NCBI GenBank assembly: GCA_021812705.1 | Contig: JAKAMT010000014.1 | Span: 1-34,511 of the forward strand | Length of the DNA stretch: 34,511 bases | Reading direction: 5' to 3' | From: Bacteroidota bacterium | GTDB lineage: Bacteria; Bacteroidota; Ignavibacteria; Ignavibacteriales; Melioribacteraceae | Shown here: positions 15,159-29,292 of the stretch, piece by piece | Numbering within the stretch: the first letter of the stretch is position 1 | Layout of the letters: each line of letters begins with the position of its first letter | Translations under genes and position numbers: made by a program | The notes under the pieces: generated by a model | Told to the model about the DNA's origin: nothing | The model's input: only the letters and a program-made list of their open reading frames with translations | The model's database searches: none

Positions 15159-15611
15159 ATGAAAATATCGGATTATAATCACAGTATAAAAGAAGTGGTG
15201 CGTTTTCATGAAGTTGATCTTCTCGGAGTATGCAACAACGCGGTCTATTTCAATTATTTTGAGGATGCCCGCCTTAGATATGTGCAGGATCTGAAAAATA
15301 AATTTGAACTGAAAGAATTTATGGAAGGCTACTCCTTTTTTATAATGGCCCACAACGAATGCGATTATCTTAAATCAGCGCACCTTGATGATGAATTAAA
15401 TATTTACACCAGAATCGATTTTATAAAAAATTCCAGTTTCGGCTTTAAACACTTAGTGGAGAAAGTTAGGTCGAAAGAGATTATTGCCCGCGGCGGCGGA
15501 GTGATGGTTCACATAGATGTAGATAGTAAAAAACCCGCTCCAATTCCCCGGGAATTTTACGACGCAGTATCAAAATTCGAAAAACAGGTTCAGATTTTAA
15601 AATCGACTTAG
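15159..15611 (+). CDS. YbgC/4-hydroxybenzoyl-CoA-thioesterase-like hotdog protein
   Basis: The protein has 150 residues. The N-terminal signature 'RFHEVDLLGVCNNAVYFNYFEDARLRY' region carries the catalytic Asp (D20) and the F-E-x-A-R segment of YbgC-type acyl-CoA thioesterases, and 'GFKHLVEKV' is the following strand. It should be a soluble thioesterase acting on short acyl-CoA or acyl-ACP. There is no clear ribosome binding site. The 3' end overlaps the convergent acyltransferase gene by four bases. Confidence 0.85.
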   Translation: MKISDYNHSIKEVVRFHEVDLLGVCNNAVYFNYFEDARLRYVQDLKNKFELKEFMEGYSFFIMAHNECDYLKSAHLDDELNIYTRIDFIKNSSFGFKHLVEKVRSKEIIARGGGVMVHIDVDSKKPAPIPREFYDAVSKFEKQVQILKST

Positions 15612-16738
15612 CGCAAAAAGAAAATTATTGTAGCACCGGCTAAGACTATTACAGAAATCCATCTGCTGTAGTGGGGATAATTTTTCTTTATCATTCCCCA
15701 TCCCTTCGCAAGAAGCAGCATCGGAATTATAAGTGCAATTGTGAAAAGTGTGCATTGCAAAAAGCCGTAACTCTGATTCGAAATATCCACAAAACTTTTT
15801 CCGTCGAAGAATGCCCGGTAAATGATCTGCAGGTGGACCCAGTAGATGAGCAGAGATTCCCGGCTCACGTCTAAAATTAATGATTTGTAATTCTCCTTCT
15901 TATTCAAGTAGAACCAGAAAATTCCAAGCAGAAAGAGAATTATACCGAATCTTTCTGAGAACCAGAGGGGATTAGGCCGCAATCCGATATCGAGTGCCGG
16001 AAAAATCACATACATAAATACAACGCTCGTGAGATAAAAAGCTGCGCCGTTGATTACCAGCTTTCTCGCAAATGCCTGTTCCGTTTTCGCATCCCGGGCT
16101 GCCAGATAAAATTTTGCCGTGTAAGCGCCGCTGAAAACAAAAGCCCACCATGGAAAAATAGGAAAAAGTGAACCGTGCATTTTATTTATATAGTTCGAAA
16201 AAAAGAGAGGCATGTAATTCGCAAAGTCAAAATTCCACATGGTTGGGCTCAGAATTAGTACAACCAGTGTTATAATCAGGGCGAAATTGAAAAACTGTTT
16301 CTCGGTCTTTAATATTGCTCTGGCTGCCAAAAGAACAAACAATCCGGTGGAAATCAGTTGCAGAATATCGACCGTGAATAAACTTTCTAAATTCGGTTGA
16401 GTTAAATTATTCATCAGTTTCGTCCACGAATAATAGGGAAGATGGAGTGAGTAACCGATATAAAATATGAGTCCAATCCTGCTTAACTTTTTCAGAAAAT
16501 CTTTGTCGAATATTCTAAGCTGATCACCTCCTTTGTGAAGCGAAAGAACAAAAACCAATCCGGATGCAAAACTGAATGATGGCGCTACCAATCCATTTAT
16601 AAAATTTAACCGGTCAAAAATCCATGACTGTTTCAGTGCCGGTAAAAGCATAGAATTGAATACGTGCACTTCTATCATTACAATCAGCGCCAGTCCCTTT
16701 AATAGATCTATAAAGAGCGCTCTGTTCTTCTGGATCAT
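15608..16738 (-). CDS. DUF1624/heparan-alpha-glucosaminide N-acetyltransferase-like membrane protein
   Basis: The protein has 376 residues, with about ten hydrophobic helices along its length. The N-terminal 'RALFIDLLKGLALIVMIEVHVFN' is typical of the membrane acyltransferase superfamily containing DUF1624/HGSNAT and acyltransferase 3; the His in the first helix is the family's conserved position. 'FPWWAFVFSGAYTAKFY' and 'SRESLLIYWVHLQIIY' also fit the superfamily. It probably transfers an acyl group from the cytoplasm to an extracytoplasmic sugar or other acceptor. The subfamily and substrate are uncertain. It is monocistronic and divergent from the exonuclease gene. Confidence 0.75.
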   Translation of the reverse strand: MIQKNRALFIDLLKGLALIVMIEVHVFNSMLLPALKQSWIFDRLNFINGLVAPSFSFASGLVFVLSLHKGGDQLRIFDKDFLKKLSRIGLIFYIGYSLHLPYYSWTKLMNNLTQPNLESLFTVDILQLISTGLFVLLAARAILKTEKQFFNFALIITLVVLILSPTMWNFDFANYMPLFFSNYINKMHGSLFPIFPWWAFVFSGAYTAKFYLAARDAKTEQAFARKLVINGAAFYLTSVVFMYVIFPALDIGLRPNPLWFSERFGIILFLLGIFWFYLNKKENYKSLILDVSRESLLIYWVHLQIIYRAFFDGKSFVDISNQSYGFLQCTLFTIALIIPMLLLAKGWGMIKKNYPHYSRWISVIVLAGATIIFFLR

Positions 16739-16886
16739 ATAGAATTCCGTTAAAATTTGAAATTAAGATAATGAATAATTTTTTTTTTGCAATGGGGATC
16801 TTTTAAAAATCTCGACGGCCGCATCCTGTGTAATTTCACTTCAAAAAATGTTAGTTTATACGGAACAAATTTATAAAGGGGGCTTT

Positions 16887-17576
16887 ATGAATCTTGTTTT
16901 TGATATCGAAACCGTGGGTTATGATTTCGAATCCCTTTCAGAATCTCAGCAGGAATTTTTAACCCGCTATTCAGAATCCGAAAAAGATCCGCTCAAAAGA
17001 TTGGAATTGATTGATGAATCGAAACGGTATCTTAGTCTTTATCCATTCACCGCTAAAACAATCGCTATCGGCTTGTTCAACGTTGAAAAAGAGAAAGCAA
17101 TTGTCCTTTATGAAAATTCTCTCAATGAAGAGTGGGTCTCAGAGGAGAAGACCGTAACCTATAAGCCGGTGCCGGAAGATGAGATGCTGAAATATTTTTG
17201 GAAATATGCCGGAAAAGCTGAAAAATTGATCTCGTTTAACGGTCGCGCGTTTGATCTTCCTTTTTTAATGATCCGTTCGGCAATCAATAAGATCAAACCC
17301 GCAAGAAATTTATTGAGAAACAGATACGATCTGAGTAAACATGTGGATCTGCTTGAGCAATTCACTTTTCACGGACTGACTAAAAAATTCAACCTGGATT
17401 TTTACTGCCGGTCGTTCGGAATCGATTCCCCAAAATCCCAGGGGGTGACCGGCATGGATGTTAAAGAACTTTACAAAGCCGGCAGAATGAAAGAGATAGC
17501 CATCTATTGCGGAAAAGATATTAAAGCGACTTACGAGCTCTACAGGATCTGGAATGATTTTCTGAATATCGGGTAA
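16887..17576 (+). CDS. Stand-alone DEDDy 3'-5' exonuclease, PolB-like
   Basis: The protein has 229 residues from the ATG at 16887, which has AAAGGGGG just upstream; 13 in-frame upstream codons look spurious. The exonuclease motifs are visible: Exo I 'FDIETVG' (D6, E8), Exo II 'ISFNGRAFDLPFL' (D123) and Exo III Y207-x3-D211 ('YCGKD'), so the DEDDy catalytic set is complete. No polymerase domain follows. It fits the predicted PolB-like 3'-5' exonuclease family. The role is probably DNA or RNA trimming in the cytoplasm, with no helpful neighbours. Confidence 0.87.
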   Translation: MNLVFDIETVGYDFESLSESQQEFLTRYSESEKDPLKRLELIDESKRYLSLYPFTAKTIAIGLFNVEKEKAIVLYENSLNEEWVSEEKTVTYKPVPEDEMLKYFWKYAGKAEKLISFNGRAFDLPFLMIRSAINKIKPARNLLRNRYDLSKHVDLLEQFTFHGLTKKFNLDFYCRSFGIDSPKSQGVTGMDVKELYKAGRMKEIAIYCGKDIKATYELYRIWNDFLNIG

Positions 17577-17708: not shown

Positions 17709-18341
17709 TTGTTGAAAAGAGAACTCTATAATAATGTAAACTGCATAATTCTCACCGGGGGAAAAAGCAGCAGGATGGGAACAGATAAATCATTCTTAAA
17801 GATCGGCTCCGAAACTATGATCCAAAGAATGAAAAACCTTCTTTCAAATATTTTCAAGAATGTTTTTTTGAGCACAAACGATTTTGATCCCTATTCCGGA
17901 CTGCAGCTGACTATGATTGAAGATATTTACAGAGATAAAGGACCGCTTTCCGGCATTCATGCCGCGTTGAAATTTTCTTCCACACAAAAAAATTTTATTA
18001 TTTCATGCGATCTTCCGTTTGTTACGGAAGATGCAATCAAATATTTGGTTGAGTATGCATCGCAAAAGCCGATTTTAATTCCGTCTGCCGGAAACAGAAT
18101 GCAGCAATTGTGTGGTATTTACAGTAAAAGCCTAGTTCCGGCAATAGAAAAAATATTTAATGAATCGGATTCTGATATTTATAATGCGGCAAAAAGAGGG
18201 GTCAGCGTTCAAAGATTGATTGAATATGCCGGAGCAGAAATTATAAATATGGAACGCCTTCCTTTTTATAATGAAAATATTTTTTTTAATATGAACTCGG
18301 AAGCAGATTACAATTTTGTGAAGAGTATAGTAAGAAACTGA
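17709..18341 (+). CDS. mobA: Molybdenum cofactor guanylyltransferase
   Basis: MobA joins GMP to Mo-molybdopterin to form the MGD cofactor used by DMSO-reductase-family enzymes. The 210 residues match the family. The nucleotide-binding signature 'LTGGKSSRMGTDKSFL' (15-30) is complete, 'DKGPLSGIHAAL' and the metal-binding 'ISCDLPFV' follow. No ATG fits; the start is a TTG at 17709 (or the adjacent TTG at 17712). It lies one base from the multihaem cytochrome gene and close to a molybdoenzyme gene that needs MGD, which strongly suggests a shared purpose. Confidence 0.93.
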   Translation: MLKRELYNNVNCIILTGGKSSRMGTDKSFLKIGSETMIQRMKNLLSNIFKNVFLSTNDFDPYSGLQLTMIEDIYRDKGPLSGIHAALKFSSTQKNFIISCDLPFVTEDAIKYLVEYASQKPILIPSAGNRMQQLCGIYSKSLVPAIEKIFNESDSDIYNAAKRGVSVQRLIEYAGAEIINMERLPFYNENIFFNMNSEADYNFVKSIVRN

Positions 18342-18342
18342 G

Positions 18343-20304
18343 ATGAAAAAATCGCCAAATATTAAATTCGTAATCACGGCTTATCTTTTTGTGCTGGCCG
18401 CGGCGGGATTTTTTGTTTACGGAGTTTTCAACTTTATAAACAGTCCTGTAAATGAAAAAATTGAGAAGTACCGGATAGAAAAATTGAAAAGGGAAACGGG
18501 GATAGATGAATCGTCCTTCTCCGACCTGCCTCTTATATTGAACCGAAGGGAAGGGTGCCTGATCTGCCATGGAGAAATGGAGGGATTTGAAAGCTCTCAC
18601 GACCCTCAAAAAATAGGATGCTACTCATGCCATCTTGGGAACCGTTTGGCAAGAGATAAATCGAGTGCTCATAAAAATCTTCTTCGCATTCCGGGAAATT
18701 CAAATGATGTGTCAGTTACATGCGGAGAAAAACAGTGCCACCCGCAGATGATTGCGAGAATGGAAAACAATATTATGACTACGATGAACGGAGTTGTGAG
18801 TGTAGATAAATGGGTCTTCGGAGAAACCGCCTCGCCCACTGCCAAATCTCCGGTCGATTCGATCAAATATTCTCCTGCGGACACACATCTGAGAAATCTC
18901 TGCGCATCGTGCCATCTTTCAAATGCAAAAACGGAAGCCGGACCGGTGCAGGAACTTTCGCGCGGCGGGGGATGCCTTGCTTGCCATTTAAATTATTCGA
19001 AAGAATCCGAAGAGATGCTCGTTCAGCTCTCCGAAGAAAAAAACAAATATGAGAATAAGATTTCAAAATTAAAATTCCATCCGTCCGTTTCTCTTAATGT
19101 TGAAAATAAACATTGTTTCGGATGCCATTCGAGATCGGGCAGAATTTCGCTAAGCTACGACGGCTGGCACGAAACGCTCCTTAAACCCGAGGACGTAAAG
19201 GGAAAAATCGGTTTCAGAATTCTTGACGACGGCAGAGTAGTCCAGCAGATAAAAAAGGATATTCATTCGGAACTGGGACTTCAATGCGTCGATTGCCACA
19301 CATCTTACGAATTGATGGGCGATGGAAAATATTCTCTTCATAAAGAAGAGCAGATGAAGATTCAGTGCGTAGACTGTCACCTGGTCTCAAATTCAACAAC
19401 TCGAAAAATTTCTCAATTTGAATTCGAATCCGCTCAAATATCCCGATTGAAAAAATTTGACCGGCCGGATCGGGATTATTTGGTGAGTGCAAAAAATGGA
19501 TTTCCGCTGGTTAATGTTTTTTTGAAGAACGGCAAACCGTATCTGATCAGAAAATCGACAGGACAAATTATTGAGATAAAATTGCCGTCGCAAAATTGTG
19601 CCCGGAACGGTGCGCATAAAAATCTCTCATGCAACAGTTGTCACAATTCCTGGTCGCCTCAATGCGTCGGATGCCACACCGAATTTGATAAAGACGGTTC
19701 GATGTTCGATCTGTTATCAAATAAAGAGGAGAAAGGGGAGTGGCTTGAACACCCGAAGGATCTTTTGCCCGAACCCGCTGTTCTGGGAGTACGGGAATTT
19801 TCAGAAAACGGTATTAAGAAAAAAATTGTTGAGGAATTCATTCCTGGAATGGTACTCACAATTAACAAAGATAAGAACAAAAAAGAAGAAAAAATTTTCA
19901 ACCGTCTGTTTGCCCCCGGTTTCTCACACACAATCAGAAAAGAAACGCGCTCTTGCGTCTCCTGCCATAATAATTCCGCGGCTTTAGGATACGGTAGAGG
20001 GAAATTGGATTTTCAAATTAACGGAAAGACAGGAGTCTGGAAATTTTCTCCTTCATATTATCCCATTCAGTATGACGGACTGCCGGAAGATTCCTGGATC
20101 GGTTTTCTGAAAGAGAGAAGTTATAATTCCACTACCAGAGATAACACGCGCCCGTTCTCAATAAGCGAGCAAAAAAAGATTCTTACCGTAGGAGCCTGCC
20201 TCACTTGCCACAAGCCGGATTCATGGGTAATGAAGAATTCTTTGAATGATTTTCAGCTTGTTCTGGAAAAAAGATCCTCAATGTGCGTTCTGCCTCAATG
20301 GTGA
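18343..20304 (+). CDS. Membrane-anchored dodecahaem cytochrome c
   Basis: The protein has 653 residues. One hydrophobic segment at about 9-31 anchors it, with the bulk in the periplasm. Eleven C-x2-C-H haem sites start at C72, C93, C187, C211, C258, C315, C342, C430, C441, C538 and C619. A twelfth, unusual C-x4-C-H site is at C127-C132-H133. Haem spacing is uneven, with a gap of about 95 residues between the sites at 441 and 538. I do not recognise a named family such as NrfA, OTR or Hao, and no beta-barrel partner is adjacent. It probably carries electrons in the periplasm for the molybdoenzyme system downstream. It follows mobA by one base; the regulator gene follows after 222 bp. Confidence 0.9.
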   Translation: MKKSPNIKFVITAYLFVLAAAGFFVYGVFNFINSPVNEKIEKYRIEKLKRETGIDESSFSDLPLILNRREGCLICHGEMEGFESSHDPQKIGCYSCHLGNRLARDKSSAHKNLLRIPGNSNDVSVTCGEKQCHPQMIARMENNIMTTMNGVVSVDKWVFGETASPTAKSPVDSIKYSPADTHLRNLCASCHLSNAKTEAGPVQELSRGGGCLACHLNYSKESEEMLVQLSEEKNKYENKISKLKFHPSVSLNVENKHCFGCHSRSGRISLSYDGWHETLLKPEDVKGKIGFRILDDGRVVQQIKKDIHSELGLQCVDCHTSYELMGDGKYSLHKEEQMKIQCVDCHLVSNSTTRKISQFEFESAQISRLKKFDRPDRDYLVSAKNGFPLVNVFLKNGKPYLIRKSTGQIIEIKLPSQNCARNGAHKNLSCNSCHNSWSPQCVGCHTEFDKDGSMFDLLSNKEEKGEWLEHPKDLLPEPAVLGVREFSENGIKKKIVEEFIPGMVLTINKDKNKKEEKIFNRLFAPGFSHTIRKETRSCVSCHNNSAALGYGRGKLDFQINGKTGVWKFSPSYYPIQYDGLPEDSWIGFLKERSYNSTTRDNTRPFSISEQKKILTVGACLTCHKPDSWVMKNSLNDFQLVLEKRSSMCVLPQW

Positions 20305-20526
20305 AATAGCAGCTAAAAATTCCTTGCATTTTTGATCTCAACCTTATTATGTTTTGTGCTGTAATTTTTAATAAAAGGACAGCTAGAACCGATTTAATTA
20401 GACTAAAAGTCGTTTTTTGATAAAAAATAGATTTTTTATTCAGATGTTCTTGTTAAAAAATTTTTTTTGTACTGATATATATTTATAAATATCAACAATC
20501 TGCATAGATAAAAATATAGAATCGAA
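20305..20526. other. AT-rich intergenic region before the MerR regulator gene
   Basis: These 222 bp contain no gene, tRNA or clear terminator. Several A and T runs are present. An imperfect dyad TGATAT-N10-ATATCA (20473-20494) could be an operator, but the area is so AT-rich that chance is likely. The promoter of the merR-psr operon should lie here. Confidence 0.5.
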
Positions 20527-20967
20527 ATGTTCACTAATGAAAATAAATTCAATGAGCCCATCTTTTCAATAAGCACAGCGGCAAGAATATTGAATATCTC
20601 TGTACATACATTAAGAATGTATGAAAGGGAAGGGCTTTTCATTTCATTTAAAAATAATTCTAATCAACGTCTCTTTTCTCAATCCGATATCGAACGCATT
20701 CAATGTATTCGCACTGCGATCAATGAAGCTGGGATAAGCATCAGCGGAATAAAAACAATTTATTCTCTTATCCCCTGCTGGAAAATTAAAGGTTGCCTCG
20801 AGGAAGATCGAAAAAAATGCGACGCATACAATAATTCGCACGTGCCGTGCTGGAGTTATGAACATAAAAATTTTTGCAAAGATAAAAATTGCAGGGAATG
20901 CGAAGTTTACTATAAATATTCGCAGTGCGGAGCAATTAAAGAATTAATTAAATCCATTTCGAGGTAA
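20527..20967 (+). CDS. MerR-family regulator with cysteine-rich C-terminal domain
   Basis: The protein has 146 residues. The winged-helix DNA-binding domain fills about 11-80 ('FSISTAARILNISVHTLRMY', 'QRLFSQSDIERIQCI'). The C-terminal part is not the usual coiled coil plus effector domain but holds eight cysteines: 84, 90, 98, 108, 117, 122, 125 and 134. Two are followed by Trp (C84-W, C108-W). Such a set could bind an iron-sulfur cluster, zinc or persulfide; which one is unknown. The stop codon touches the ATG of the molybdoenzyme gene, so it probably regulates its own operon in response to redox or sulfur state. Confidence 0.85.
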   Translation: MFTNENKFNEPIFSISTAARILNISVHTLRMYEREGLFISFKNNSNQRLFSQSDIERIQCIRTAINEAGISISGIKTIYSLIPCWKIKGCLEEDRKKCDAYNNSHVPCWSYEHKNFCKDKNCRECEVYYKYSQCGAIKELIKSISR

Positions 20968-23169
20968 ATGATGAAAAATATTTCTCGAAGAAAGTTCTTA
21001 AAAATCACGGGATTCTCTGTCGGTGCAGCAGCTGCTGCTTCGGCACTTAGTCCTATGATCAAGGGAGCGAATAAAATAAACAGAGAAAAAGTAAAAGGAG
21101 TGCAGGTAGTACCCACATATTGTGATATCTGCTTTTGGAAATGCGGATCGATGGCGTATTTGAAAGACGGTGAACTATGGAAAGTTGAAGGCAATCCGAA
21201 AGATCCTCTTTCAAAAGGCAGACTGTGTCCCCGCGGAACAGGCGGCGTAGGTGCGGTGAGCGATCCCGACAGGCTGCGTTCTCCGCTTATTAGAACTCGT
21301 GAACGAGGTGAAGAAGTTTGGAAAGAAGTTACATGGGATGAAGCCCTTTCTTATGTGGCCAATAAAATGAATGATATTAAAGCGAAGTACGGCGCGGAAT
21401 CATTCGCTTCATTCTCTCACGGCATCGGCGGAAATTTTTTGAGGCATATGCTGAACGCATATGGAGCAATAAATTTTGCCGCACCTTCATTCGCCCAATG
21501 CAGGGGTCCACGCGATGTGGGTTTTGAACTTACTTTCGGAGATGCAATCGGATCACCGGAAAGAACAGACATAGAAAATTCAAAATGTCTCGTGCTTATA
21601 GGCTCGCACCTTGGAGAAAACATGCATAACTCTCAAGTGCAGGAATTTGCATCTGCCGTGCAGAATAATGCGAGCATTATAGTTGTCGATCCTAGATTCT
21701 CAGTCGCAGCTTCAAAAGCAAAATATTATTTGCCAATTAAACCGGGAACAGACATTGCACTGTTGCTGGCGTGGATGAACGTTATAGTCTCGGAAAAATT
21801 ATACGATATAGATTACGTTACAAATTACGGATTCGGATTTGAACAGTTTGCCGCAGAAATTTCTCAGTATACACCGGAGTGGGCTTATCCCGAAACCGGA
21901 ATTGATCCGCAGCTGATACGCGCATCCGCTCGTGAAATGGCTATGCATAAGCCGGCTACACTGGTTCATCCAGGCAGACACACAAGCTGGTACGGAGATG
22001 ACGCGCAGAGAAGCCGTGCAATTGCACTTCTGAATGCATTGCTCGGAAGCTGGGGACGCAAGGGAGGATTTTTCTACCCGGTTGCATATTCTCTGCCTAA
22101 ATATCCCTATCCGCCATATCCAGCTTCAACCAAAGAAAAATTGGATAATCCTGGAAAAAAATATCCATTCGCTTCCGAAGAGATAACTACCGGAATACGC
22201 GAAGCTACTATTACGGAAAAACCGTATCCTATCAAAGGATGGTTTATTTATGCTACAAATCTTATTCAAGCTCTTCCAAACCAGCAGGAAACTATAAAAG
22301 CCATTCAGAATTTGGATTTGATGGTCGTTGTTGATGTTATTCCAAGCGAAATTGCCGGATGGGCAGATGTTGTTCTTCCGGAATCCGTTTACCTGGAAAG
22401 ATATGACGATCTCCATATGTCCGCATTTAAAGAAACTTTTGTCGGAATAAGACAGCCCGTAATTGATTCACCGGCAGATCAGAAACCGAATTGGTGGATC
22501 GCAAAAAAATTAGCGGAAAAATTGGGACTCGGAAATTATTTCCCGTGGAATCATGTGGAAGAATATCTTGACTACAGACTCAAAGCCGGCGGCTTGAGTC
22601 TCGAGCTGCTGAAAAAAGAAGGGATAATAAAAGGTCCCAAAAAACCGATATACATAGAGGAAGGAGTTACGCCTGAATTTCCAACCCCTTCGGGCAAAAT
22701 TGAATTTTATTCGCTTCAGTTGCAGCAGGCCGGATTTGACCCCGTGCCTAAATTTAAAAGACCGGAACAGCCGCAGGACGGATTTTACAGATTATTATTC
22801 GGACGCGCACCGGTTCATACATTCAGCCGTACTCAATCGAACAGAATTCTTTCAGATATGATGGCAGAAAATGAAGTCTGGATTAATAACGATGTTGCGG
22901 AGAAATGGGGAATTAGAAATGCTCAATACATACGCTTAAAAAATCAGGATGGAGTCGTGAGCAATAAAGTAAAAGTGAAAGTAACCGAACGAATAAGAAC
23001 GGACTGCGTTTTTATGGTGCACGGGTTCGGCCATACAAGCAAAATGCTTAGAAGCGCATTTGGAAAAGGCGCAAGCGATACAAACTTGGTAACCAGATAC
23101 AATATAGATCCGTTGATGGGAGGTACCGGCATGAATGTGAACTTTGTAACTTTTGAGACGGAGGCTTAG
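20968..23169 (+). CDS. Molybdopterin oxidoreductase, polysulfide/thiosulfate reductase catalytic-subunit type
   Basis: The protein has 733 residues. A Tat signal is visible (S-R-R-K-F-L-K at 6-12 plus a hydrophobic alanine-rich stretch to about 33), so it is exported folded. A [4Fe-4S] site follows: C52-x2-C55-x3-C59-x27-C87-P-R-G. C178 in 'FAQCRGPRD' is a likely molybdenum ligand, as in PsrA/PhsA. Later parts match the family: 'HPGRHTSWYGDDAQRSRAI', 'GWADVVLPESVYLERYDD' and the C-terminal MGD-binding domain from about 610. Length and the two following genes fit PsrA/PhsA. The substrate (polysulfide, thiosulfate, tetrathionate or arsenic species) is not decided by sequence. A second ATG at 20971 is equally possible as start. 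Confidence 0.88.
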   Translation: MMKNISRRKFLKITGFSVGAAAAASALSPMIKGANKINREKVKGVQVVPTYCDICFWKCGSMAYLKDGELWKVEGNPKDPLSKGRLCPRGTGGVGAVSDPDRLRSPLIRTRERGEEVWKEVTWDEALSYVANKMNDIKAKYGAESFASFSHGIGGNFLRHMLNAYGAINFAAPSFAQCRGPRDVGFELTFGDAIGSPERTDIENSKCLVLIGSHLGENMHNSQVQEFASAVQNNASIIVVDPRFSVAASKAKYYLPIKPGTDIALLLAWMNVIVSEKLYDIDYVTNYGFGFEQFAAEISQYTPEWAYPETGIDPQLIRASAREMAMHKPATLVHPGRHTSWYGDDAQRSRAIALLNALLGSWGRKGGFFYPVAYSLPKYPYPPYPASTKEKLDNPGKKYPFASEEITTGIREATITEKPYPIKGWFIYATNLIQALPNQQETIKAIQNLDLMVVVDVIPSEIAGWADVVLPESVYLERYDDLHMSAFKETFVGIRQPVIDSPADQKPNWWIAKKLAEKLGLGNYFPWNHVEEYLDYRLKAGGLSLELLKKEGIIKGPKKPIYIEEGVTPEFPTPSGKIEFYSLQLQQAGFDPVPKFKRPEQPQDGFYRLLFGRAPVHTFSRTQSNRILSDMMAENEVWINNDVAEKWGIRNAQYIRLKNQDGVVSNKVKVKVTERIRTDCVFMVHGFGHTSKMLRSAFGKGASDTNLVTRYNIDPLMGGTGMNVNFVTFETEA

Positions 23170-23170
23170 T

Positions 23171-23710
23171 ATGGCAAGATATGGAATGGCCATCGATACT
23201 AAAAAATGCGTTGGATGCATGGACTGTGTTGTCGCATGCAAAACAGAAAATAATGTTCCTGAAGGATTTAACAGAGACTGGATTGTTACTGTGGCTAATG
23301 GAAAATTTCCGGATCTGAATTTGGAGATCCAGAGCCAGAGATGTAACCATTGCGATAATACTCCCTGTGTATCATGCTGCCCAACGGGAGCCAGTCATGT
23401 TCACGATGTCGGCGCTGTTGTCCTGGTCGATCACAATATGTGCATTGGATGCAAAGCGTGCGTTGCCGCCTGCCCTTATGATGCAAGGTTTGTCAATCCC
23501 GAAGGGTATGCGGACAAATGTACATTCTGCATTCACAGAGTTGAAAATGGTGAATCGACTGCGTGTGCAAGCGTGTGTCCCACACATTGTATCTATTTCG
23601 GAGATCTCGATGATCCGAATAGCGAAGTAAGCAAATTGTTGGCTTCAAGAAAAAATCATCCGCTCTTGCCTGAAGCGGGAACATCACCAAGAATTTTTTA
23701 TCTGGTCTGA
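23171..23710 (+). CDS. Four-cluster ferredoxin subunit, PsrB/PhsB type
   Basis: The protein has 179 residues from the ATG at 23171, chosen because GGAGG stands at about 23159-23163 and the psrA-like stop is at 23169. Sixteen cysteine positions are expected for four [4Fe-4S] clusters. Visible groups are C13/16/19/23, C58/61/66/70, C91/94/97/101 and C117/120/132/136. This is the electron-transfer subunit between the molybdenum subunit and the membrane subunit. It has no signal of its own, so it would be co-exported with the Tat substrate, as known for this family. Confidence 0.93.
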   Translation: MARYGMAIDTKKCVGCMDCVVACKTENNVPEGFNRDWIVTVANGKFPDLNLEIQSQRCNHCDNTPCVSCCPTGASHVHDVGAVVLVDHNMCIGCKACVAACPYDARFVNPEGYADKCTFCIHRVENGESTACASVCPTHCIYFGDLDDPNSEVSKLLASRKNHPLLPEAGTSPRIFYLV

Positions 23711-23719
23711 GAGGTCTAA

Positions 23720-24667
23720 ATGCAAGAATTAACAACTACTCGTCATAATCCGCAGATCGATCCTTTCACTGCCGTGTGGGGCTGGGAAATTCCTGTCTAT
23801 CTCTTTCTCGGCGGACTCGTGGCTGGAATGATGGTAATAGCGGGATATTTTTTGTACAAAGAGAAATATAAAAACGCAGAGAGCATTGTAAATTATATTC
23901 CATTGCTCAGCGTATTGTTTTTGAGTTCAGGTATGGGAGCTCTTTTTCTGGATCTGGAACACAAATTATTTGTGTGGAGACTTTACACAACATTTAAGAT
24001 CTCATCCCCGATGTCGTGGGGCGCATGGATCCTGATTTTAGTTTATCCTGTCATTCTGGCAAACGCACTTATCTCTCCGCCGGAATTTATCCTGAACCGC
24101 TTTCCCCAGCTTAAGAAAATTACTGCAGCATTAATTTCAAAACCGGATCTGATTAAGAAGATTGGGATAGGAAATATGATTTTGGGAAGCATGCTCGGCG
24201 TTTATACAGGAGTTTTACTTAGCACAATGGGTTCCCGCCCATTGTGGAATACATCCGTACTCTGGCTCCTTTTTCTGGTGTCCGGACTGTCAACTGCCGC
24301 GGCATTCATTCACATGATCGCTAAAAATAATGAAGAGAGCGAACTGCTGGCTAAAGCGGATAACGGTTTTATTGTGCTTGAAATGTTTGTGATTGCAATG
24401 ATGCTTGTCGGACTTTCAACTGCGTCGCAGGCGCATATTTTTGCGGCTAAGCTCTTGATGGGTGGGCCTTACACTGCGCAGTTCTGGGTTTTTGTGGTTG
24501 GAATAGGATTAGTCCTGCCGCTCATCTTACAAATTCTTGCATCAAAACATAAAATAAAACATACTCCAATCGCCCCTGTCTTGGTAATTGCAGGGGGATT
24601 GATTTTAAGATTCATAATTGTTTCAGCCGGACAGTACAGTCACTACTTAAATGCTCACTTTAAGTGA
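23720..24667 (+). CDS. NrfD/PsrC-family membrane subunit
   Basis: This inner-membrane protein has 315 residues. Eight hydrophobic helices are visible, the first beginning at 'WGWEIPVYLFLGGLVAGMMV', a typical NrfD/PsrC opening. The family binds quinone and exchanges electrons with the PsrB-type subunit. It starts 9 bp after the ferredoxin subunit gene, completing a PsrABC set. Residues lining the quinone site cannot be assigned safely by eye. Confidence 0.9.
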   Translation: MQELTTTRHNPQIDPFTAVWGWEIPVYLFLGGLVAGMMVIAGYFLYKEKYKNAESIVNYIPLLSVLFLSSGMGALFLDLEHKLFVWRLYTTFKISSPMSWGAWILILVYPVILANALISPPEFILNRFPQLKKITAALISKPDLIKKIGIGNMILGSMLGVYTGVLLSTMGSRPLWNTSVLWLLFLVSGLSTAAAFIHMIAKNNEESELLAKADNGFIVLEMFVIAMMLVGLSTASQAHIFAAKLLMGGPYTAQFWVFVVGIGLVLPLILQILASKHKIKHTPIAPVLVIAGGLILRFIIVSAGQYSHYLNAHFK

Positions 24668-24715
24668 GAATGTTAAAAAAAGATTTTCAAAAAAGTGTAA
24701 TTGACGGAGTAATTC

Positions 24716-25270
24716 ATGAATTCAAAAAATGAAAAATCACACGAAGGAAAATCCTTCGAGCCCAAACCATATTCTAATCCGTATGTAGTCGGATTTGGAC
24801 TTGGTTTGGTTCTGCTCGCCTCATTTTTAGTAATGGGGCGCGGACTTGGCGCTTCCGGTGCGGTTTCAACTGTTGTGGCAGTAGGAGTTGAAAATATTGC
24901 ACCCCAGCATGCGGCGAAAAATAATTTCTATAAAGAATATCTTGGAGATGGCACAACCAATCCGCTTAAAGACTGGTTGGTCTTCGAAGTAATCGGTGTT
25001 ATGGTAGGCGGTTTTATCTCAGGATCTCTAGCCCATAGAATTAAACGCACTACGGAAAAAGGTCCTAATGTAACTGTGAAAACAAGATTGATATATGCCT
25101 TTGCCGGAGGAGCTATAATGGGAATAGGAGCTAAGCTGGCGCGCGGCTGCACAAGCGGGTTGGCTCTTACTGGAGGCGCTCTGTTAAGCTTAGGCGGCTG
25201 GGCATTCATGTTCGCGGTTTTTGGCGGCGGCTACGCGGCCGCATATTTTATAAGGAGGCAATGGTTATGA
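24716..25270 (+). CDS. YeeE/YedE-family sulfur permease, first half-size protein
   Basis: The protein has 184 residues with about four to five hydrophobic helices. The signature 'GAKLARGCTSGLALTGGALLSLGGW' region carries a conserved cysteine (C145), as in TsuA-type thiosulfate carriers, where cysteines line the path. A hydrophilic loop lies at about 62-86. GGAG precedes the start. Full-length TsuA proteins are about twice this size; here the second half is the next gene, overlapping by four bases. Relatives include PmpA/PmpB pairs. The likely role is import of thiosulfate or another reduced sulfur species, inferred from family and context. Confidence 0.87.
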   Translation: MNSKNEKSHEGKSFEPKPYSNPYVVGFGLGLVLLASFLVMGRGLGASGAVSTVVAVGVENIAPQHAAKNNFYKEYLGDGTTNPLKDWLVFEVIGVMVGGFISGSLAHRIKRTTEKGPNVTVKTRLIYAFAGGAIMGIGAKLARGCTSGLALTGGALLSLGGWAFMFAVFGGGYAAAYFIRRQWL

Positions 25271-25869
25271 TGCCATATTTTAAATTCGATTACTTCGGCT
25301 TTGATTTCAGCTTGGTCGTGGCTTTTATTGTAGGCATTGGTTTCGGCTTCGCGTTGGAAAGAGGCGGATTCGGAAACGCAAGAATATTAGCTGCTCAATT
25401 TTATTTCTACAATATGCGCGTGCTTAAAGTAATGTTCTCTGCAATTGTTACCGCAATGCTCGGACTTTTTTATTTCGCTTGGATCGGCTGGCTGGATCTT
25501 TCGTTAGTTTATATCGGTGATACTTACATAGTTCCTCAGATTATCGGCGGTCTGATTTTAGGTATTGGATTTGTGATCGGCGGTTACTGTCCGGGTACCT
25601 CATTGGTGTCGGCTTCAACGGGAAGAACAGACGGAATTGTTTTTGTTCTGGGAATCTTTGCGGGAATTTTTGTCTTCGGCGAATTATTCCCGTTGATAGA
25701 AGGATTTTACAATTCAACAAATTTAGGACGCGTTACTCTTCCCGAATTTTTAGGAATCTCGCACGGAATGGTTGTGTTTCTTGTTGTCCTGATGGCATTA
25801 GGCGCGTTTGCTGCTGCCGGATGGGGAGAAAAAGTTTTGGCAAAGAAAAACGGAAGAGGTGTTGAATGA
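25267..25869 (+). CDS. YeeE/YedE-family sulfur permease, second half-size protein
   Basis: The protein has 200 residues from the ATG at 25267. That start overlaps the upstream stop as ATGA and lies 8 bp after AAGGAGG (25252-25258); the ATG at 25261 is too close to that site. Signatures are 'GFGFALERGGFGNARILAAQ' near 25-45 and 'GFVIGGYCPGTSLVSASTGR' with C108, both typical of YeeE/YedE half proteins. About five helices are visible. It should pair with the preceding protein to form one carrier. The stop overlaps the rhodanese-like gene by four bases. Confidence 0.87.
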   Translation: MMPYFKFDYFGFDFSLVVAFIVGIGFGFALERGGFGNARILAAQFYFYNMRVLKVMFSAIVTAMLGLFYFAWIGWLDLSLVYIGDTYIVPQIIGGLILGIGFVIGGYCPGTSLVSASTGRTDGIVFVLGIFAGIFVFGELFPLIEGFYNSTNLGRVTLPEFLGISHGMVVFLVVLMALGAFAAAGWGEKVLAKKNGRGVE

Positions 25870-26531
25870 AAGAGCTCTTGAAAAAATTAAGTGCTGCACA
25901 GAAATTAGCCGCCGCCGCTTTTCTACTCGGACTGCTGGCATTGATAATCGGCACTCCTTCGAATAATCATTCTGTAAATGTGAACGCGAAGGAGATGCTT
26001 CTTTCTACAATCAAAACTCAGGACAGAGTAGATGTGATGACATTGGCAGACTGGCTCATAAAAGAAAAATTGGATTACACTCTGGTTGATCTTAGAAGCG
26101 AAAAAGAATTTGCTGCTTACAATATTCCTTCATCGCTCAATGTTCCTGTGGAAAATATTCTCACTTCGGATCTGCGTCGCAACCAAAAAATACTTCTATA
26201 CGGAAATGATGATGTAGCCTCCGCTCAGGCGTGGTTTATACTGAAAAGCTCCAATTATAAATCAGTTTATATTTTAGATGGCGGCTTGAATGCCTGGAAG
26301 GATAAAATCCTTTTCCCCAAACTCGCAGATAATTCCACAGATGAAGAAAAAAGCACATTCGAAAAAGTGAAACAGATTTCACTTCACTTTGGCGGAACTC
26401 CGCAATTAATTTCCGGCGGAACATCGTCTGCGGTAACTCCTCAGTCAGCTCAAGTTCAGCCGATGCCTAAGCTTTCCGCGCCCAAAAGCCCAGCAGGAGG
26501 CGTCGCTAAGAAGAAAAAAGAGGGCTGCTGA
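25866..26531 (+). CDS. Membrane-anchored rhodanese-like protein lacking the catalytic cysteine
   Basis: The protein has 221 residues. One hydrophobic helix lies at about 12-30, and a rhodanese domain at about 55-150 with 'YTLVDLRSEKEFAAYNIPSSLNVP' and 'SVYILDGGLNAWK'. The active-site loop reads L-L-Y-G-N-D-D-V-A-S, so the usual cysteine is replaced (by G113) and normal sulfurtransferase chemistry is not expected. The only cysteine is the very last residue (C221), after a lysine run at the end of a flexible Pro/Ala/Ser tail. It overlaps the permease gene by four bases. It may be a sulfur-binding or scaffold protein for the permease, which is inference. Confidence 0.83.
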   Translation: MKELLKKLSAAQKLAAAAFLLGLLALIIGTPSNNHSVNVNAKEMLLSTIKTQDRVDVMTLADWLIKEKLDYTLVDLRSEKEFAAYNIPSSLNVPVENILTSDLRRNQKILLYGNDDVASAQAWFILKSSNYKSVYILDGGLNAWKDKILFPKLADNSTDEEKSTFEKVKQISLHFGGTPQLISGGTSSAVTPQSAQVQPMPKLSAPKSPAGGVAKKKKEGC

Positions 26532-26584: not shown

Positions 26585-26658
26585 TGATTGTTCTGAAATT
26601 TTTTAATGATTGTTTTAACCACGAATCAATCCCGCCAAAATTATAAGAGGTGTGCACA

Positions 26659-27768
26659 ATGAAATATTTTGTTAAAACTGTTTTACTATTTCTTTTCTTG
26701 TCGATAGGTGCGGTTTTCCCTTCTCAGCACGGTATCTATCTTCACACGGTTGCTAATATTAAAGGAGATATTAATAAGGTAGGGGAAGAGCTTAAGGTTA
26801 AATTGAAAAATGCCGGTTACAATATTTTGAACTATACAGATGTTGCTACTCCGGATATTGTAAGACAAAAAAAAGAGGAGCAGTGCAATTTTAAAGCTAA
26901 ACTCATATTGCTCGGTTCAAATGATTTTACGAAAATGATTACTGCCCGCGGTAATAAATATCTCGCTGCGGCTTTTATAAGAATTGGAATTTATGAATCA
27001 CAAGACGGTATACAGGTCGTAATTGCAGACCCGGAGACAATCAACCGGGTGGTCTTTAATGATCTGTGGGAAAGCGGAAAAGAGAACGATTACAACCAAA
27101 TCATTGCGAAGACAAAAGAATTTAAAACCAATCTGATTAAAACCATTCATTCAATCGGAACAGGAAATAATATTGAAAAACCGATGGAACCGATTCGCAG
27201 CGATGAAGATCTGCGCGAGTCTTCGCGCGATATGTTCATGATGGTGGGAAAAATGACCTTCTTTAATGATGAGGATCAATTTCCGGTTGTCTTTTCAAGA
27301 AAAAATAATGAGGGAAGAAAAGGACTTGACAGATTGATCGGTGAGATGAAAAATAATTTGAAAAATTTTAGTCCGGCAAAAAATGATGTAGAGTACCGCT
27401 ATGTGGCATCACCCGAAGTATTGAAATGGAGAATCATCGGTCAGATCTATTCACCGGATTCCACTTCGGTAGTTCTGGGAATTACTCGCCCGCAGACAGA
27501 AGGACTTTCATTTCATATTGCCGGTTCAAAATTTGAGACAAAAGAAAATAAATGTCCGGGCATCAATCACCTTGTTGCTTACCCGATAGAAATTTTGATT
27601 ACTCAAAAAGACGGACAATTGATTGTTAATACGGCAAGAGAAATGTTCAGAATGGATATGTATTTCTGGGATGCGGGTAAAATGGCTTTTATGAATCATA
27701 TGAGTATGCCGTCTGTGCTGGATGAATCGATTAAACTGGCGCTCTTTGGAAAAGAATCTAAAAAATAG
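26659..27768 (+). CDS. Secreted protein with DUF302-like N-terminal domain
   Basis: The protein has 369 residues from the ATG at 26659, which has AGAGG eight bases upstream. A signal peptide is visible (KYFVKTVLLFLFLSIGAVFPSQ). Residues about 30-150 resemble DUF302: helix 'VGEELKVKLKNAGYNIL', strand 'KLILLGSND', then 'AAAFIRIGIYESQDGIQVVIADPETIN'. The remainder (about 190-365) has no family I recognise; it includes 'MVGKMTFFNDEDQFPVVF' and a C-terminal Met-rich stretch. It precedes a FadL-type porin gene by 48 bp, so both may be co-expressed envelope proteins. The DUF302 call is moderate. Confidence 0.6.
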   Translation: MKYFVKTVLLFLFLSIGAVFPSQHGIYLHTVANIKGDINKVGEELKVKLKNAGYNILNYTDVATPDIVRQKKEEQCNFKAKLILLGSNDFTKMITARGNKYLAAAFIRIGIYESQDGIQVVIADPETINRVVFNDLWESGKENDYNQIIAKTKEFKTNLIKTIHSIGTGNNIEKPMEPIRSDEDLRESSRDMFMMVGKMTFFNDEDQFPVVFSRKNNEGRKGLDRLIGEMKNNLKNFSPAKNDVEYRYVASPEVLKWRIIGQIYSPDSTSVVLGITRPQTEGLSFHIAGSKFETKENKCPGINHLVAYPIEILITQKDGQLIVNTAREMFRMDMYFWDAGKMAFMNHMSMPSVLDESIKLALFGKESKK

Positions 27769-27816
27769 ATGTTTTGAAAAATGCTTCACAACTCACTAAA
27801 ATAAAGGAGTATTAAA

Positions 27817-29292
27817 ATGAAGTTAGTAAAATCAGTTGCTCTGTTCCTGTTGGTTGCTTCGGCTGTAATGGCGCAAACCGGAACCCGGTTAGTTGGATTT
27901 ACAGCGCAATCTATGGGACGCGGCGGTGCTTCAATTGGAACTTTCGACAGTAATGAATTGATGATGACAAATCCGGCCGGAATATCGTTCCTCAACAATT
28001 CATCGCTTGATGTAAATTTGTCTTTAATGTTTCCCTCACTTCATTTCAAAAATAATTTGAATGATGCGAACGGAGATAAAAATGTATTTCCGCTCCCTGC
28101 GGTTTCATACGTTCATAACTGCGGCTCAAGCGATTTTACATGGGGAGTAGGATTTTTTACTGCAGGCGGAATGGGTGCGGATTACAAATTGAAACACGCT
28201 CTGTACGGAACCGCACTTCAGGAGTACCATTCTAAACTTGCTTCTATGCAGGGCGGTTTGACATTTGCATACAAGTTCGATAAAAATTTATCTGTGGGCG
28301 CAAGCCTTCATTTGGTTTACAGCATGCTGGAATTTTCAATGCCGTTCGCGTTGAATCCTCTCGCGATGCAGGGAATAGCAATGCCCGGCATGACATTCGG
28401 ACAAATGTTTGCGGCTCCTCCTGCCATGGGCGGATTCGGATACGATGAAGTTACAGCTGCCGCAAAGATGAACAATCTTACTGCCGTGGGCTTTAACGGC
28501 AAGATCGGTTTTGCTTATAAGGTGAATGAAAAATTTTCTTTGGGATTAAGCTATACAATGCCTACATCTCTTACTTATAGCGGAGGCAAGGCAACAATGG
28601 ATATGACAGCGCAGCTCAACGACGCGTTCGGAAAAGCAATGATGGGCTGGATGATGCAGAACCCAGGAAAGACACAGCAGGATGCTCAGGCGGCAATCAT
28701 GGCCCAATTTACGGCACTTGGTATTGATATGTCCAAAGGTGTTATTGCAAATTATGATCTAGATGTTGATCTGAAATTCCCTCAGTCGATCGGATTCGGC
28801 GCGTCCTACGAGGCAGCGAATAATTTGAAATTGTCAGCCGATATAGAATGGATAAATTGGGAAAATGCTTTCGATAAAATGACCTTGAAACTGAAGAGCG
28901 GGAACAACGCAAACATCAACAAGATGATGGGCAACACAGGAACGTTCAATATCGATTTCCCGATGAACTGGAAAAATTCTATTTTAGTAAAATTAGGCGG
29001 TGAATTAAAACTGAATAAGGCATTTACAGCAAGATTAGGATACGCATACGGAGGAAATCCGGTTCCTGAATCAACAGTATTTCCAATCTTTCCGGCAATT
29101 GTGGAAAACCATATAACAGCAGGCTTGAGCGTTAAAGCTTCTGATTCTATTACACTTAATGCGGCTTTTGAAATGGCACTTAACAAATCTTTGAAAGCCA
29201 GCAATCCCAGCGTAATCTCAAACGAATTCGACGGAAGTACAAGCGAATTATCAACAACTTTAATTCACTTCTCTTTCAATTACGCTTTCTAA
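27817..29292 (+). CDS. OmpP1/FadL-family outer-membrane protein
   Basis: The protein has 491 residues. A signal peptide is visible at about 1-20 (ending A-V-M-A-Q). The mature N terminus 'FTAQSMGRGGASIGTFDSNELMMTNPAGISFL' region is the classical FadL/TodX plug motif (N-P-A-G). The rest shows alternating strand patterns of a beta-barrel, ending in N-Y-A-F, a typical outer-membrane insertion signal. A methionine-rich stretch lies at about 185-205. FadL proteins take up hydrophobic compounds such as fatty acids or aromatics. AAGGAG precedes the start and a terminator follows. Confidence 0.9.
   Translation: MKLVKSVALFLLVASAVMAQTGTRLVGFTAQSMGRGGASIGTFDSNELMMTNPAGISFLNNSSLDVNLSLMFPSLHFKNNLNDANGDKNVFPLPAVSYVHNCGSSDFTWGVGFFTAGGMGADYKLKHALYGTALQEYHSKLASMQGGLTFAYKFDKNLSVGASLHLVYSMLEFSMPFALNPLAMQGIAMPGMTFGQMFAAPPAMGGFGYDEVTAAAKMNNLTAVGFNGKIGFAYKVNEKFSLGLSYTMPTSLTYSGGKATMDMTAQLNDAFGKAMMGWMMQNPGKTQQDAQAAIMAQFTALGIDMSKGVIANYDLDVDLKFPQSIGFGASYEAANNLKLSADIEWINWENAFDKMTLKLKSGNNANINKMMGNTGTFNIDFPMNWKNSILVKLGGELKLNKAFTARLGYAYGGNPVPESTVFPIFPAIVENHITAGLSVKASDSITLNAAFEMALNKSLKASNPSVISNEFDGSTSELSTTLIHFSFNYAF

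Follow-up and report, generated by a model that had tools for sequence, protein, structure and literature searches.

A PsrABC-type locus with a split YeeE/YedE transporter and a degenerate rhodanese ending in cysteine, a candidate periplasmic sulfur carrier

Introduction

Why would a PsrABC-type locus encode a rhodanese that has lost its catalytic cysteine and carries its only cysteine as the very last residue? The question is raised by nine consecutive plus-strand genes in the window (the whole stretch of DNA analyzed, 34,511 nucleotides), the nearest named relatives of which are from Stygiobacter (Ignavibacteriota). An earlier note on this DNA had described these genes as one functional unit with a "cysteine-less" rhodanese. 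Judging from sequence, we think it rather probable that the locus encodes a periplasmic module for handling sulfane sulfur, in which this rhodanese, here called RhoGC, would serve a split YeeE transporter (y1 and y2) as a SoxY-like arm, in this case coupled to a Psr-type enzyme. The observations behind this proposal are the anatomy of the locus, its conservation and synteny, gene fusions, co-occurrence, and an operator in relatives.

Methods

Eight loci are doubles of named ones (L033, L034, L035, L039, L042, L043, L044 and L045 with L050, L099, L049, L064, L065, L070, L094 and L102, respectively), and counts for named loci cover L047–L126 only. One locus analysis took 80 of 88 loci; for core completeness, 22 of the 80 were excluded with under 5 kb before the rhodanese gene, leaving 58 testable loci. 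The tally of 77 RhoGC homologues excludes 4 of 81 reading frames that run off the contig. The 108 distinct rhodaneses are the 111 rows beside y2 (identical ends removed) minus L101, L109 and L123, which are y2 reading frames recovered by profile spill. The same tally contains 15 rows without y2 nearby, eight without a terminal cysteine and seven with one; these seven are L056 and L110 (cut contigs), L109 (an over-long reading frame missed by the distance rule), a second copy in L128, L147 twice (contig edge), and L113 (solitary). The MerR alignment of 58 reading frames includes duplicate genomes and second merR genes. Later RhoGC locus sets partly overlap earlier ones, and the window belongs to one set of 30 loci.

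Results and Discussion

Profile searches (Pfam, NCBIfam) assigned all nine reading frames to the families that had been expected from the sequence. The mobA and cytochrome genes lie 1 bp apart, merR directly abuts psrA (0 bp), psrA and psrB overlap by 17 bp, psrB and psrC are separated by 9 bp, psrC and y1 by 48 bp, and y1–y2 and y2–rho overlap by 10 and 4 bp. The description of most gaps as 0–50 bp or overlaps thus holds for most junctions, with one clear exception, the 222 bp between the cytochrome gene and merR.

The enzyme consists of three subunits. The PsrA/PhsA-type molybdopterin catalytic subunit (20968..23169, 733 aa) carries an RRKFLK signal motif and matches the Thermus thermophilus PsrABC enzyme (2vpw) over its full length (731 bits, residues 6–730), and its Cys178 aligns with the cysteine of 2vpw that we take to be the molybdenum ligand. 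The best NCBIfam model is PhsA, with 517 bits below the cut-off of 694. Next come a PsrB-type multi-[4Fe-4S] subunit (23153..23710; Fer4_11, 1e-22; 18 cysteines) and a PsrC/NrfD-type membrane subunit (23720..24667; NrfD, 1e-43). A molybdopterin subunit with the presumed cysteine ligand, an iron–sulfur subunit and an NrfD protein together place the enzyme in the PsrABC/PhsABC (CISM) family.

The following two genes encode halves of a YeeE/YedE protein. The PmpA-like C-terminal half y1 (24716..25270) covers positions 178–309 of the Sulf_transp profile and the PmpB-like N-terminal half y2 (25261..25869) positions 1–150. Each has a single cysteine, Cys145 in y1 (invariant in 68 of 68 aligned sequences) and Cys110 in y2 (64 of 64), so that the family assignment draws on both halves of the domain and a conserved cysteine in each. 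The y1 protein weakly matches the TsuA structures 8j4c and 6leo; a comparison of y2 with PDB sequences returned no meaningful relative. The TsuA residues equivalent to these cysteines, Cys91 and Cys293, are called indispensable in the passages on them in Li et al. 2024 (PMC11582611).

The synteny of enzyme and transporter genes in relatives, put forward earlier as a check, was found: of 58 testable named loci, which come from several phyla, 57 have all six core genes (psrABC, y1, y2 and rho) in this order and on a single strand, an arrangement far beyond chance. Strong rhodanese matches and strong PsrA matches fall in the same 12 genomes of a 178-genome phylum sample. From these two observations we conclude that enzyme, YeeE-type carrier and rhodanese belong together; to this extent the idea of one functional unit stands, though not for all nine genes. 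Three loci count against the module: L113 has a solitary RhoGC with no Psr or YeeE within about 10 kb on either side, L169 has PsrABC followed by two RhoGC genes with no y1/y2 between (the contig ends right there), and in L131 an A-type enzyme occurs without y1 directly after psrC (the contig ends about 400 bp on). A search of a plasmid collection gave two weak partial matches. The pair of RhoGC and y1/y2 is accompanied by PsrABC, by an octahaem cytochrome of the tetrathionate reductase family with a cytochrome b, or by an SseA-like protein.

RhoGC (25866..26531) has a rhodanese fold according to Pfam (Rhodanese, 5e-16) and Foldseek (3ilm, E 8e-8). A helix (residues 10–28) precedes the rhodanese domain (about 51–155) and a disordered arm (about 185–221), and in the AF2 model pLDDT is over 90 through the domain and 52–62 in the arm. 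Gly113 aligns with the cysteine of the active-site loop of 1yt8, and the catalytic cysteine is therefore lost. This position is Ser, Gly, Ala, Asp or Thr in 75 of 77 homologues and Cys in two; six more have a cysteine at position 112, and these eight of 77, with a cysteine in or next to the former active site, count against the proposal. An active rhodanese was rejected, since the loop cysteine is missing in the window and in most homologues. A fully cysteine-free protein was rejected as well: the single cysteine is residue 221, at the end (...KKKKEGC) of a flexible tail of roughly 40 residues rich in Pro/Ala and Lys. The label "cysteine-less" had masked the most informative feature of the protein.

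A cysteine is the last or second-last residue in 106 of the 108 distinct rhodaneses that adjoin or are fused to PmpB-like y2, and both exceptions are interrupted reading frames with the tail in another frame. For comparison, only 3 of 387 other reading frames of the locus families end in cysteine, and the terminal cysteine is absent from eight ordinary rhodaneses (42–60 bits) without y2 nearby. The final Gly-Cys is kept in an alignment of seven sequences with 17–57% identity to the first. This conservation suggests that the tail is probably a flexible arm that hands sulfur to the transporter. It is unlikely that RhoGC carries nothing, the rhodanese domain being a YeeE subunit for structure or sensing and its terminal cysteine serving lipidation, disulfide anchoring or stability. 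Such a role would suit the lack of an active-site cysteine in most members, the fusion of many of them to y2, and a Lys-rich tail that could act electrostatically; however, a Gly-Cys end that stays constant despite linkers of 27 to 55 residues, with GGCA and GGCG variants, fits a reactive arm better, and periplasmic proteins ending in ...GC are not known to be lipidated at the C-terminus.

Of 15 weaker matches, 12 are fusions of y2 to RhoGC; all 12 have y1 upstream and end in GGC, VGC, GGCA or GGCG, while the remaining three, without y1/y2, have no tail. Ten named loci from Acidobacteriota and Verrucomicrobiota also contain such fusions. A structure model of a fusion (mean pLDDT 55, pTM 0.36) was discarded. 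The N-terminal side of the RhoGC helix is richer in Lys/Arg than the other in 59 of 76 proteins, equal in 12 and poorer in five, and this charge bias points to a periplasmic domain. The opposite topology, a cytoplasmic RhoGC that replaces TsuB or TusA as acceptor from YeeE, seems improbable: the known TsuA partner TsuB is cytoplasmic (PMC11582611) and a search of the window genome for TusA gave no match, but the charge bias (59 of 76 versus 5) speaks for the periplasm and the fused proteins inspected have several Lys/Arg in the linker preceding the helix. The same genome search returned no match to DsrC and none above cut-off to SQR III. These negative results, that for TusA included, count against the proposed module.

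The first two genes are accessory. A MobA-like nucleotidyltransferase for the MGD cofactor (17709..18341, 210 aa, TTG start; Pfam NTP_transf_3, 1e-33; MobA equivalog models of NCBIfam below their cut-offs) adjoins the cytochrome gene also in close relatives. The c-type cytochrome (18343..20304, 653 aa, N-terminal hydrophobic segment) is indeed dodecahaem, as had been counted before, with 11 CxxCH and one CX4CH motif (CGEKQCH), each kept in 25–27 of 27 aligned homologues. It is ExtM-like, with scores for the NCBIfam ExtM model of 251 bits in the window and 266 in L036 that fall short of membership (cut-off 800). In the 178-genome sample this cytochrome occurs only with a PsrA homologue (8 of 8 genomes), and likewise in 15 of 15 genomes among the 57 nearest, three of which have only a distant homologue (45–46% identity). 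The cytochrome gene is near the enzyme in 20 of 48 testable loci.

It is unlikely that the nine genes, which the earlier note took for one functional unit, encode one stable complex including the cytochrome. The distance matrices of PsrA and cytochrome do correlate (r = 0.81, 27 loci, species tree not corrected for), and every genome searched in which the cytochrome was found also has a PsrA homologue. Co-transfer and common descent are indistinguishable in such a correlation, which was not used as proof. On the other hand, 28 of 48 testable loci have no cytochrome gene near the enzyme, and in some loci it lies on the opposite strand. We rejected the nine-gene complex given this optional cytochrome and the 222-bp gap; mobA and the cytochrome make up a second unit, which is optional. 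In several relatives (L036, L038–L041 and L043; confirmed by Pfam for L036) the cytochrome is fused to Cytochrome_B with a Rieske gene upstream. Neither Rieske nor cytochrome b is among the genes of the window locus, which has the haem part alone; the cytochrome is probably a remnant of a Rieske–cytochrome b–12-haem complex.

The regulator (20527..20967, 146 aa; MerR_1, 2e-16) was correctly called Cys-rich: it has nine cysteines, and its C-terminal domain contains two Cys-Trp pairs, a pattern presumably known as "two-CW". Seven cysteines and two tryptophans are invariant in all 58 aligned reading frames, and the other two cysteines in 57. An NCBIfam scan of this part up to E = 1 gave no match. 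A putative operator (20475..20496) is a decayed GTTGATA-N8-TATCAAC with a degenerate left arm and three mismatches; relatives have the consensus here. With 2 matches at three mismatches against 1.9 expected, the copy in the window is not significant, and the operator claim therefore rests on relatives. There, it occurs with at most one mismatch upstream of just 18 of 29 named merR genes that precede psrA, and the same operator stands before a second merR of a neighboring SQR-DsrC-DsrE operon in all five named loci that contain the SQR cassette. A sigma-70 promoter scan found 21 sites versus 21.5 expected.

From these elements a working mechanism can be drawn. Anchored by one N-terminal helix, RhoGC would place its domain, devoid of an active-site cysteine, in the periplasm, and the tail cysteine may bear sulfur as a persulfide or thiosulfonate like the swinging arm of SoxY. 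It would shuttle the bound sulfur between a redox enzyme of the periplasm (here Psr-type, with an NrfD quinone subunit) and a split YeeE channel to which y1 and y2 would each contribute one invariant cysteine. The MerR protein may regulate the operon through the putative operator, and the cytochrome, probably derived from a Rieske–cytochrome b–ExtM-like complex, may serve as an optional electron partner. Sulfur loading of the cysteine, its periplasmic side, the direction, the substrate and the contact with PsrA are what we infer.

As to direction, net sulfur oxidation, in which the enzyme would reduce quinone and cytochromes drain the electrons, seems slightly favored over reduction. Respiration of thiosulfate or polysulfide, to which we give somewhat less than even chances, would have PsrABC reduce the compound with quinol, RhoGC bind polysulfide and feed PsrA in the manner of Sud, and YeeE import or export the product. 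PhsA as top model, 1qxn (presumably Wolinella Sud) among the rhodanese matches, and the nearest solved enzyme, 2vpw, deposited as a thiosulfate reductase, speak for it. Reduction is favored also by the transcription of thiosulfate-reduction genes in the anaerobic night in a relative (Thiel et al. 2019, PMC6338057), and authors on cable bacteria regard Phs/PsrABC as a reductase (PMC13047784). However, the Rieske/cytochrome b complex and the SQR-DsrC-DsrE operon with the same operator in relatives fit oxidation, and RhoGC is found also without Psr.

We see an even chance that RhoGC represents an unrecognized class of sulfur carriers, in which a rhodanese fold would have given up the catalytic cysteine for a reactive one at the tip of a C-terminal arm, independently of SoxY. 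In several phyla such carriers would dock with split YeeE channels on the periplasmic side, and the redox enzyme that goes with them (Psr, octahaem cytochrome or SseA-like) would be interchangeable. RhoGC-like proteins should not be annotated as active rhodaneses. A degenerate rhodanese with a terminal GC beside PmpB-like genes can serve as a marker for sulfur modules in uncultured members of the Ignavibacteriota, Acidobacteriota, Gemmatimonadota and Verrucomicrobiota.

Comparison with Known Systems

The exact gene set was not known to the earlier note as a described system. The core with its MerR gene, though not the cytochrome, has in fact been in print since 2019: for Ca. Thermonerobacter, Thiel et al. 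2019 (PMC6338057) describe a cluster of MerR, psrABC, two Sulf_transp genes and a rhodanese, and M. roseus was reported by Kadnikov et al. 2013 (PMC3534657) to have psrABC together with a MerR gene. The passages describing these loci name a rhodanese-related sulfurtransferase and mention no cytochrome link, terminal cysteine, fusions or operator. The cytochrome unit resembles Geobacter extHIJKLMNOPQS, with 12-haem ExtM, Rieske ExtO, cytochrome b ExtP and rhodanese-like ExtH (Jahan et al. 2018, PMC5877670). It differs in that several relatives carry cytochrome b and the 12-haem part in a single protein, and that the window lacks b and Rieske, has a Psr enzyme, and scores under the ExtM cut-off. 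Among YeeE-type transporters such as PmpA/PmpB and SoxT (PMC11582611), PmpA/PmpB are likewise two halves with one conserved cysteine each; y1 and y2 are longer (184 and 202 aa versus about 130) and accompany or fuse to RhoGC.

Two carriers come close to RhoGC, and both differ from it. RhoGC matches the sequence of 1qxn, which we take to be Wolinella Sud, with 9e-6. Sud is a rhodanese domain that partners a Psr enzyme and uses its own catalytic cysteine, which RhoGC lacks. SoxY ends in GGCGG, and some RhoGC tails end in GGC, GGCA or GGCG. RhoGC has Rhodanese as its sole Pfam match, differs from SoxY in fold, is membrane anchored, and no SoxZ is found among the nine genes. What it shares with SoxYZ (PMC11237559) is the carrier logic, a cysteine near the C-terminus on a flexible swinging arm, although loading with sulfur is only predicted for RhoGC. 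For periplasmic presentation of sulfur to YeeE, SoxYZ with DsbA or SoxS have been discussed as candidates (Li et al. 2024, PMC11582611). With a putative carrier arm encoded next to one half of the channel, and in many genomes covalently joined to it, periplasmic sulfur delivery becomes testable through one protein and one cysteine.

Conservation of the locus

The nine consecutive genes that the earlier note had assigned to a respiratory sulfur locus (17709-26531) were confirmed by an ORF check and profile searches in position, strand and family. The gaps between them are generally small as described, except for 222 bp between the cytochrome gene and merR. The window is one contig of a draft genome of 3.16 Mb with 91% completeness. 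By rhodanese, two Stygiobacter records are the nearest named relatives (69 and 66% identity), and the catalytic A subunit in L047, a neighborhood from Stygiobacter sp. RIFOXYC2_FULL_38_25, is 88% identical to that of the window.

Besides the window's own genome, 14 of the 56 other nearest genomes contain a strong rhodanese match. In all 14 fetched neighborhoods the genes for PsrABC (A, B, C), the two halves of the split YeeE/YedE protein (y1, y2) and the rhodanese (rho) are consecutive, with rho interrupted in L046; merR is absent from one (L039), and the cytochrome is nearby in ten. Among 80 named loci, 58 contain at least 5 kb before rho, and in 57 of these the six core genes are all present on the same strand, arranged A, B, C, y1, y2/rho. 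The sole exception, L113, has rho alone: a solitary rhodanese with an EGC tail (L113:9857-10582), with no Psr or YeeE match in the fetched flanks of about 10 kb on each side. Forty-eight named loci have a nearly complete A gene plus 3 kb or more of upstream sequence; among them, the cytochrome is present in 20 (11 of which also match a cytochrome b profile), a Rieske gene in nine, and merR directly upstream of A in 27.

In a sample of 178 genomes from the phylum, strong rhodanese matches (>260 bits) and strong A matches (at least 67% identity) mark an identical set of 12 genomes, and all eight cytochrome-bearing genomes contain an A homologue; since the genomes searched are related, these and the following co-occurrence counts are not independent events. 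Weaker matches pair less neatly: five more genomes have a rhodanese at 110-125 bits and 11 more an A homologue at 44-54% identity, with G184 as the only genome common to both lists. The members fetched or scanned account for part of this. G184, G185, G062, G067 and G072 encode more distant rhodaneses of this type, G120 and G189 combine such a protein with y1/y2 but no Psr, and G111 has no y1 after C up to the contig end. Of the 57 nearest genomes, the 15 with strong A are also the 15 with a strong rhodanese, and one genome (G029, 68% complete) contains A in pieces without a strong rhodanese. The cytochrome also occurs in 15 of the 57, 12 with strong A and three (G052, G054, G056) whose A homologue reaches just 45-46% identity; in G031 it is a fragment on another contig. 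Four nearest genomes (G015, G019, G029, G047) have A without cytochrome.

Both flanks of the locus recur in relatives. Downstream (26650-29292), the window encodes a protein of 372 residues that matched neither Pfam nor NCBIfam, and a PorV-family/FadL-like protein; homologues are present on the downstream side in L034 and L035. Upstream of mobA (15608-17576) are genes for a divergent membrane protein (376 residues) and for a second protein (242 residues), with homologues at the same place in L034-L037.

A degenerate rhodanese with a terminal cysteine

The rhodanese, which we call RhoGC, had been described as cysteine-less. This holds at the catalytic position, where Gly113 aligns with the cysteine of the 1yt8 active-site loop, but not at the very end of the protein, where a cysteine is found as in 76 of the 77 complete ORFs from the window and the named loci. 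The residue equivalent to Gly113 is Ser in 50 of these ORFs, Gly in 13, Ala in nine, Asp in two, Cys in two and Thr in one; six further ORFs contain Cys one place earlier. The C-terminus reads EGC in 75 cases and DGC in one, and for the 77th ORF (L073) a KKKKKEGC end is encoded in a different frame. Interrupted RhoGC ORFs with a Lys-rich EGC tail encoded in another frame are located at L046:11948-12545 and L073:2776-3426. Only three of 387 other ORFs of the locus families terminate in Cys, and a KKKEGC-stop DNA pattern occurs once in the window genome, at this rhodanese.

The AF2 model of RhoGC consists of a helix (residues 10-28), a confidently modelled rhodanese domain and a disordered tail; Foldseek matches are rhodanese domains. 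The N-terminal helix flank is richer in Lys and Arg in 59 of 76 proteins, equal in 12 and poorer in five, and the rhodanese domain is therefore probably periplasmic.

A profile built from mostly distant members was searched against 395 genomes of the phylum, and the best 30 loci, window included, were fetched. All 31 RhoGC-type proteins above 60 bits in these loci end in Cys, and y1 and y2 adjoin them in 29 of the 30. In the search of the nearest genomes, 12 of 15 weaker rhodanese matches are y2-rhodanese fusions (394-400 residues) that directly follow y1 and have GGC, VGC, GGCA or GGCG ends. The other three (L024, L026, L027) are without y1/y2 and contain an internal but no terminal Cys. After pooling and removal of identical ends, 108 rhodaneses beside or fused to y2 remain, and in 106 of them the last or second-last residue is Cys; the other two are interrupted ORFs whose tail is encoded in a different frame. 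Among rhodaneses that are not beside y2, eight lack such a Cys. Seven others have one, namely two from truncated contigs, one that escaped the distance rule, three tandem copies (L128, and L147 twice) and the solitary L113 protein. In L147/L169, two RhoGC genes follow PsrABC without intervening y1/y2, but this contig stops right after them. The tandem pairs at L169:7-2270 and L128:2128-3415 have EEGGC and KPEGGC tails.

Alternative enzyme partners

RhoGC and y1/y2 are found with PsrABC, with an octahaem cytochrome or with an SseA-like protein. The octahaem cytochrome belongs to the tetrathionate-reductase family TIGR04315 (568 and 590 bits for the two proteins scanned, L164 and L166; cut-off 375). 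The octahaem gene and a gene for 217-231 residues precede y1 in all five fetched fusion loci (of the 12). L164-L168 contain in a row the octahaem cytochrome, a cytochrome b gene (shown for L164), y1 and the y2-rhodanese fusion. The best model for the one cytochrome b scanned (L164) is PRK15006, thiosulfate reductase cytochrome b, at 109 bits, below the cut-off of 204. No strong PsrA was found in the genomes of L164-L168. In L132 and L133, the partner is a two-domain rhodanese with 3-mercaptopyruvate sulfurtransferase as best model.

A second molybdenum-enzyme locus (L043:4387-10695, L070, L045:10964-17289, L102) comprises merR, a TorD-like chaperone, a PhsA-like A' subunit (540 bits), an Fe-S subunit, a fusion of a cytochrome b561 domain with the C-terminal YeeE half (y1; shown for L043), and the other YeeE half. 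Here again, YeeE is tied to a quinone-linked enzyme.

The dodecahaem cytochrome

The window cytochrome contains 11 CxxCH motifs and one CX4CH. Geobacter ExtM is the best curated model, but at 251 bits against a cut-off of 800 we do not count the protein as a member of this equivalog. The Geobacter selenite/tellurite cluster encodes a 12-haem cytochrome (ExtM), a cytochrome b (ExtP) and a Rieske protein (ExtO), according to Jahan et al. 2018 (PMC5877670). In contrast to these separate components, the homologue in L036, 900 residues long, carries a Cytochrome_B domain at its N-terminus, and a Rieske protein is encoded ahead of it; L038-L041 and L043 share this arrangement, as judged from their sequences. 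The window gene encodes the haem part alone, which we read as a remnant of a quinol-oxidising complex.

MerR and a putative operator

In an alignment of 58 MerR ORFs, seven cysteines and two Cys-Trp tryptophans are invariant, and two further cysteines are kept in 57. The palindrome GTTGATA-N8-TATCAAC at merR starts occurs 23 times (at most one mismatch) in the 1.197 Mb of window and named loci, compared with 0.38 on average and at most three for 60 shuffled palindromes. Twenty-one of the sites fall within the distance allowed from a merR start, and the remaining two (L050, L077) inside over-long merR ORFs. The palindrome covers 18 of the 29 named merR genes that immediately precede A, and is exact in two merR-bearing octahaem loci (L164, L168); L165-L167 contain neither merR nor palindrome. 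The copy in the window has three mismatches and would not be noticeable alone.

The palindrome also precedes a second merR in all five named loci where this gene heads SQR-DUF1641-DsrC-DsrE (L049, L069, L070, L085, L099; L070 ends after DUF1641). This cassette, with a type III sulfide:quinone reductase (SQR), follows rho in these loci, in L034 (2227-5487) and in L035, and is absent at this place in the window. The L034 SQR exceeds the cut-off of the selenoprotein-subtype model. In the window genome, DsrC and TusA gave no match, and no protein exceeded the SQR cut-off (best 79 bits).

Mechanism and relation to known systems

According to Li et al. 2024 (PMC11582611), PmpA and PmpB correspond to the YeeE halves, each with one cysteine, and sulfur delivery to the YeeE-family channel is modelled via SoxYZ with DsbA or SoxS. 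RhoGC could take over this role here, in line with a relay made up of the periplasmic enzyme, the RhoGC arm and the YeeE channel with its two cysteines. Sulfur oxidation is favoured by the bc-type complex in relatives and by the SQR operon that shares the operator. In favour of sulfur reduction are the closest enzyme of solved structure, Thermus thermophilus thiosulfate reductase (2vpw), and reported night transcripts of thiosulfate reduction. We lean slightly to oxidation and hold reduction to be nearly as probable.

The earlier note did not know this gene set as a described system. The core gene order was in fact already noted by Thiel et al. 2019 (PMC6338057), and Kadnikov et al. 2013 (PMC3534657) mention a MerR gene accompanying psrABC in Melioribacter roseus. 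In the open-access literature searched, we found no description of the terminal cysteine, the fusions, the operator or the link to the cytochrome. The locus is therefore a variant of known sulfur modules, and RhoGC inside it is possibly a new class of carrier.
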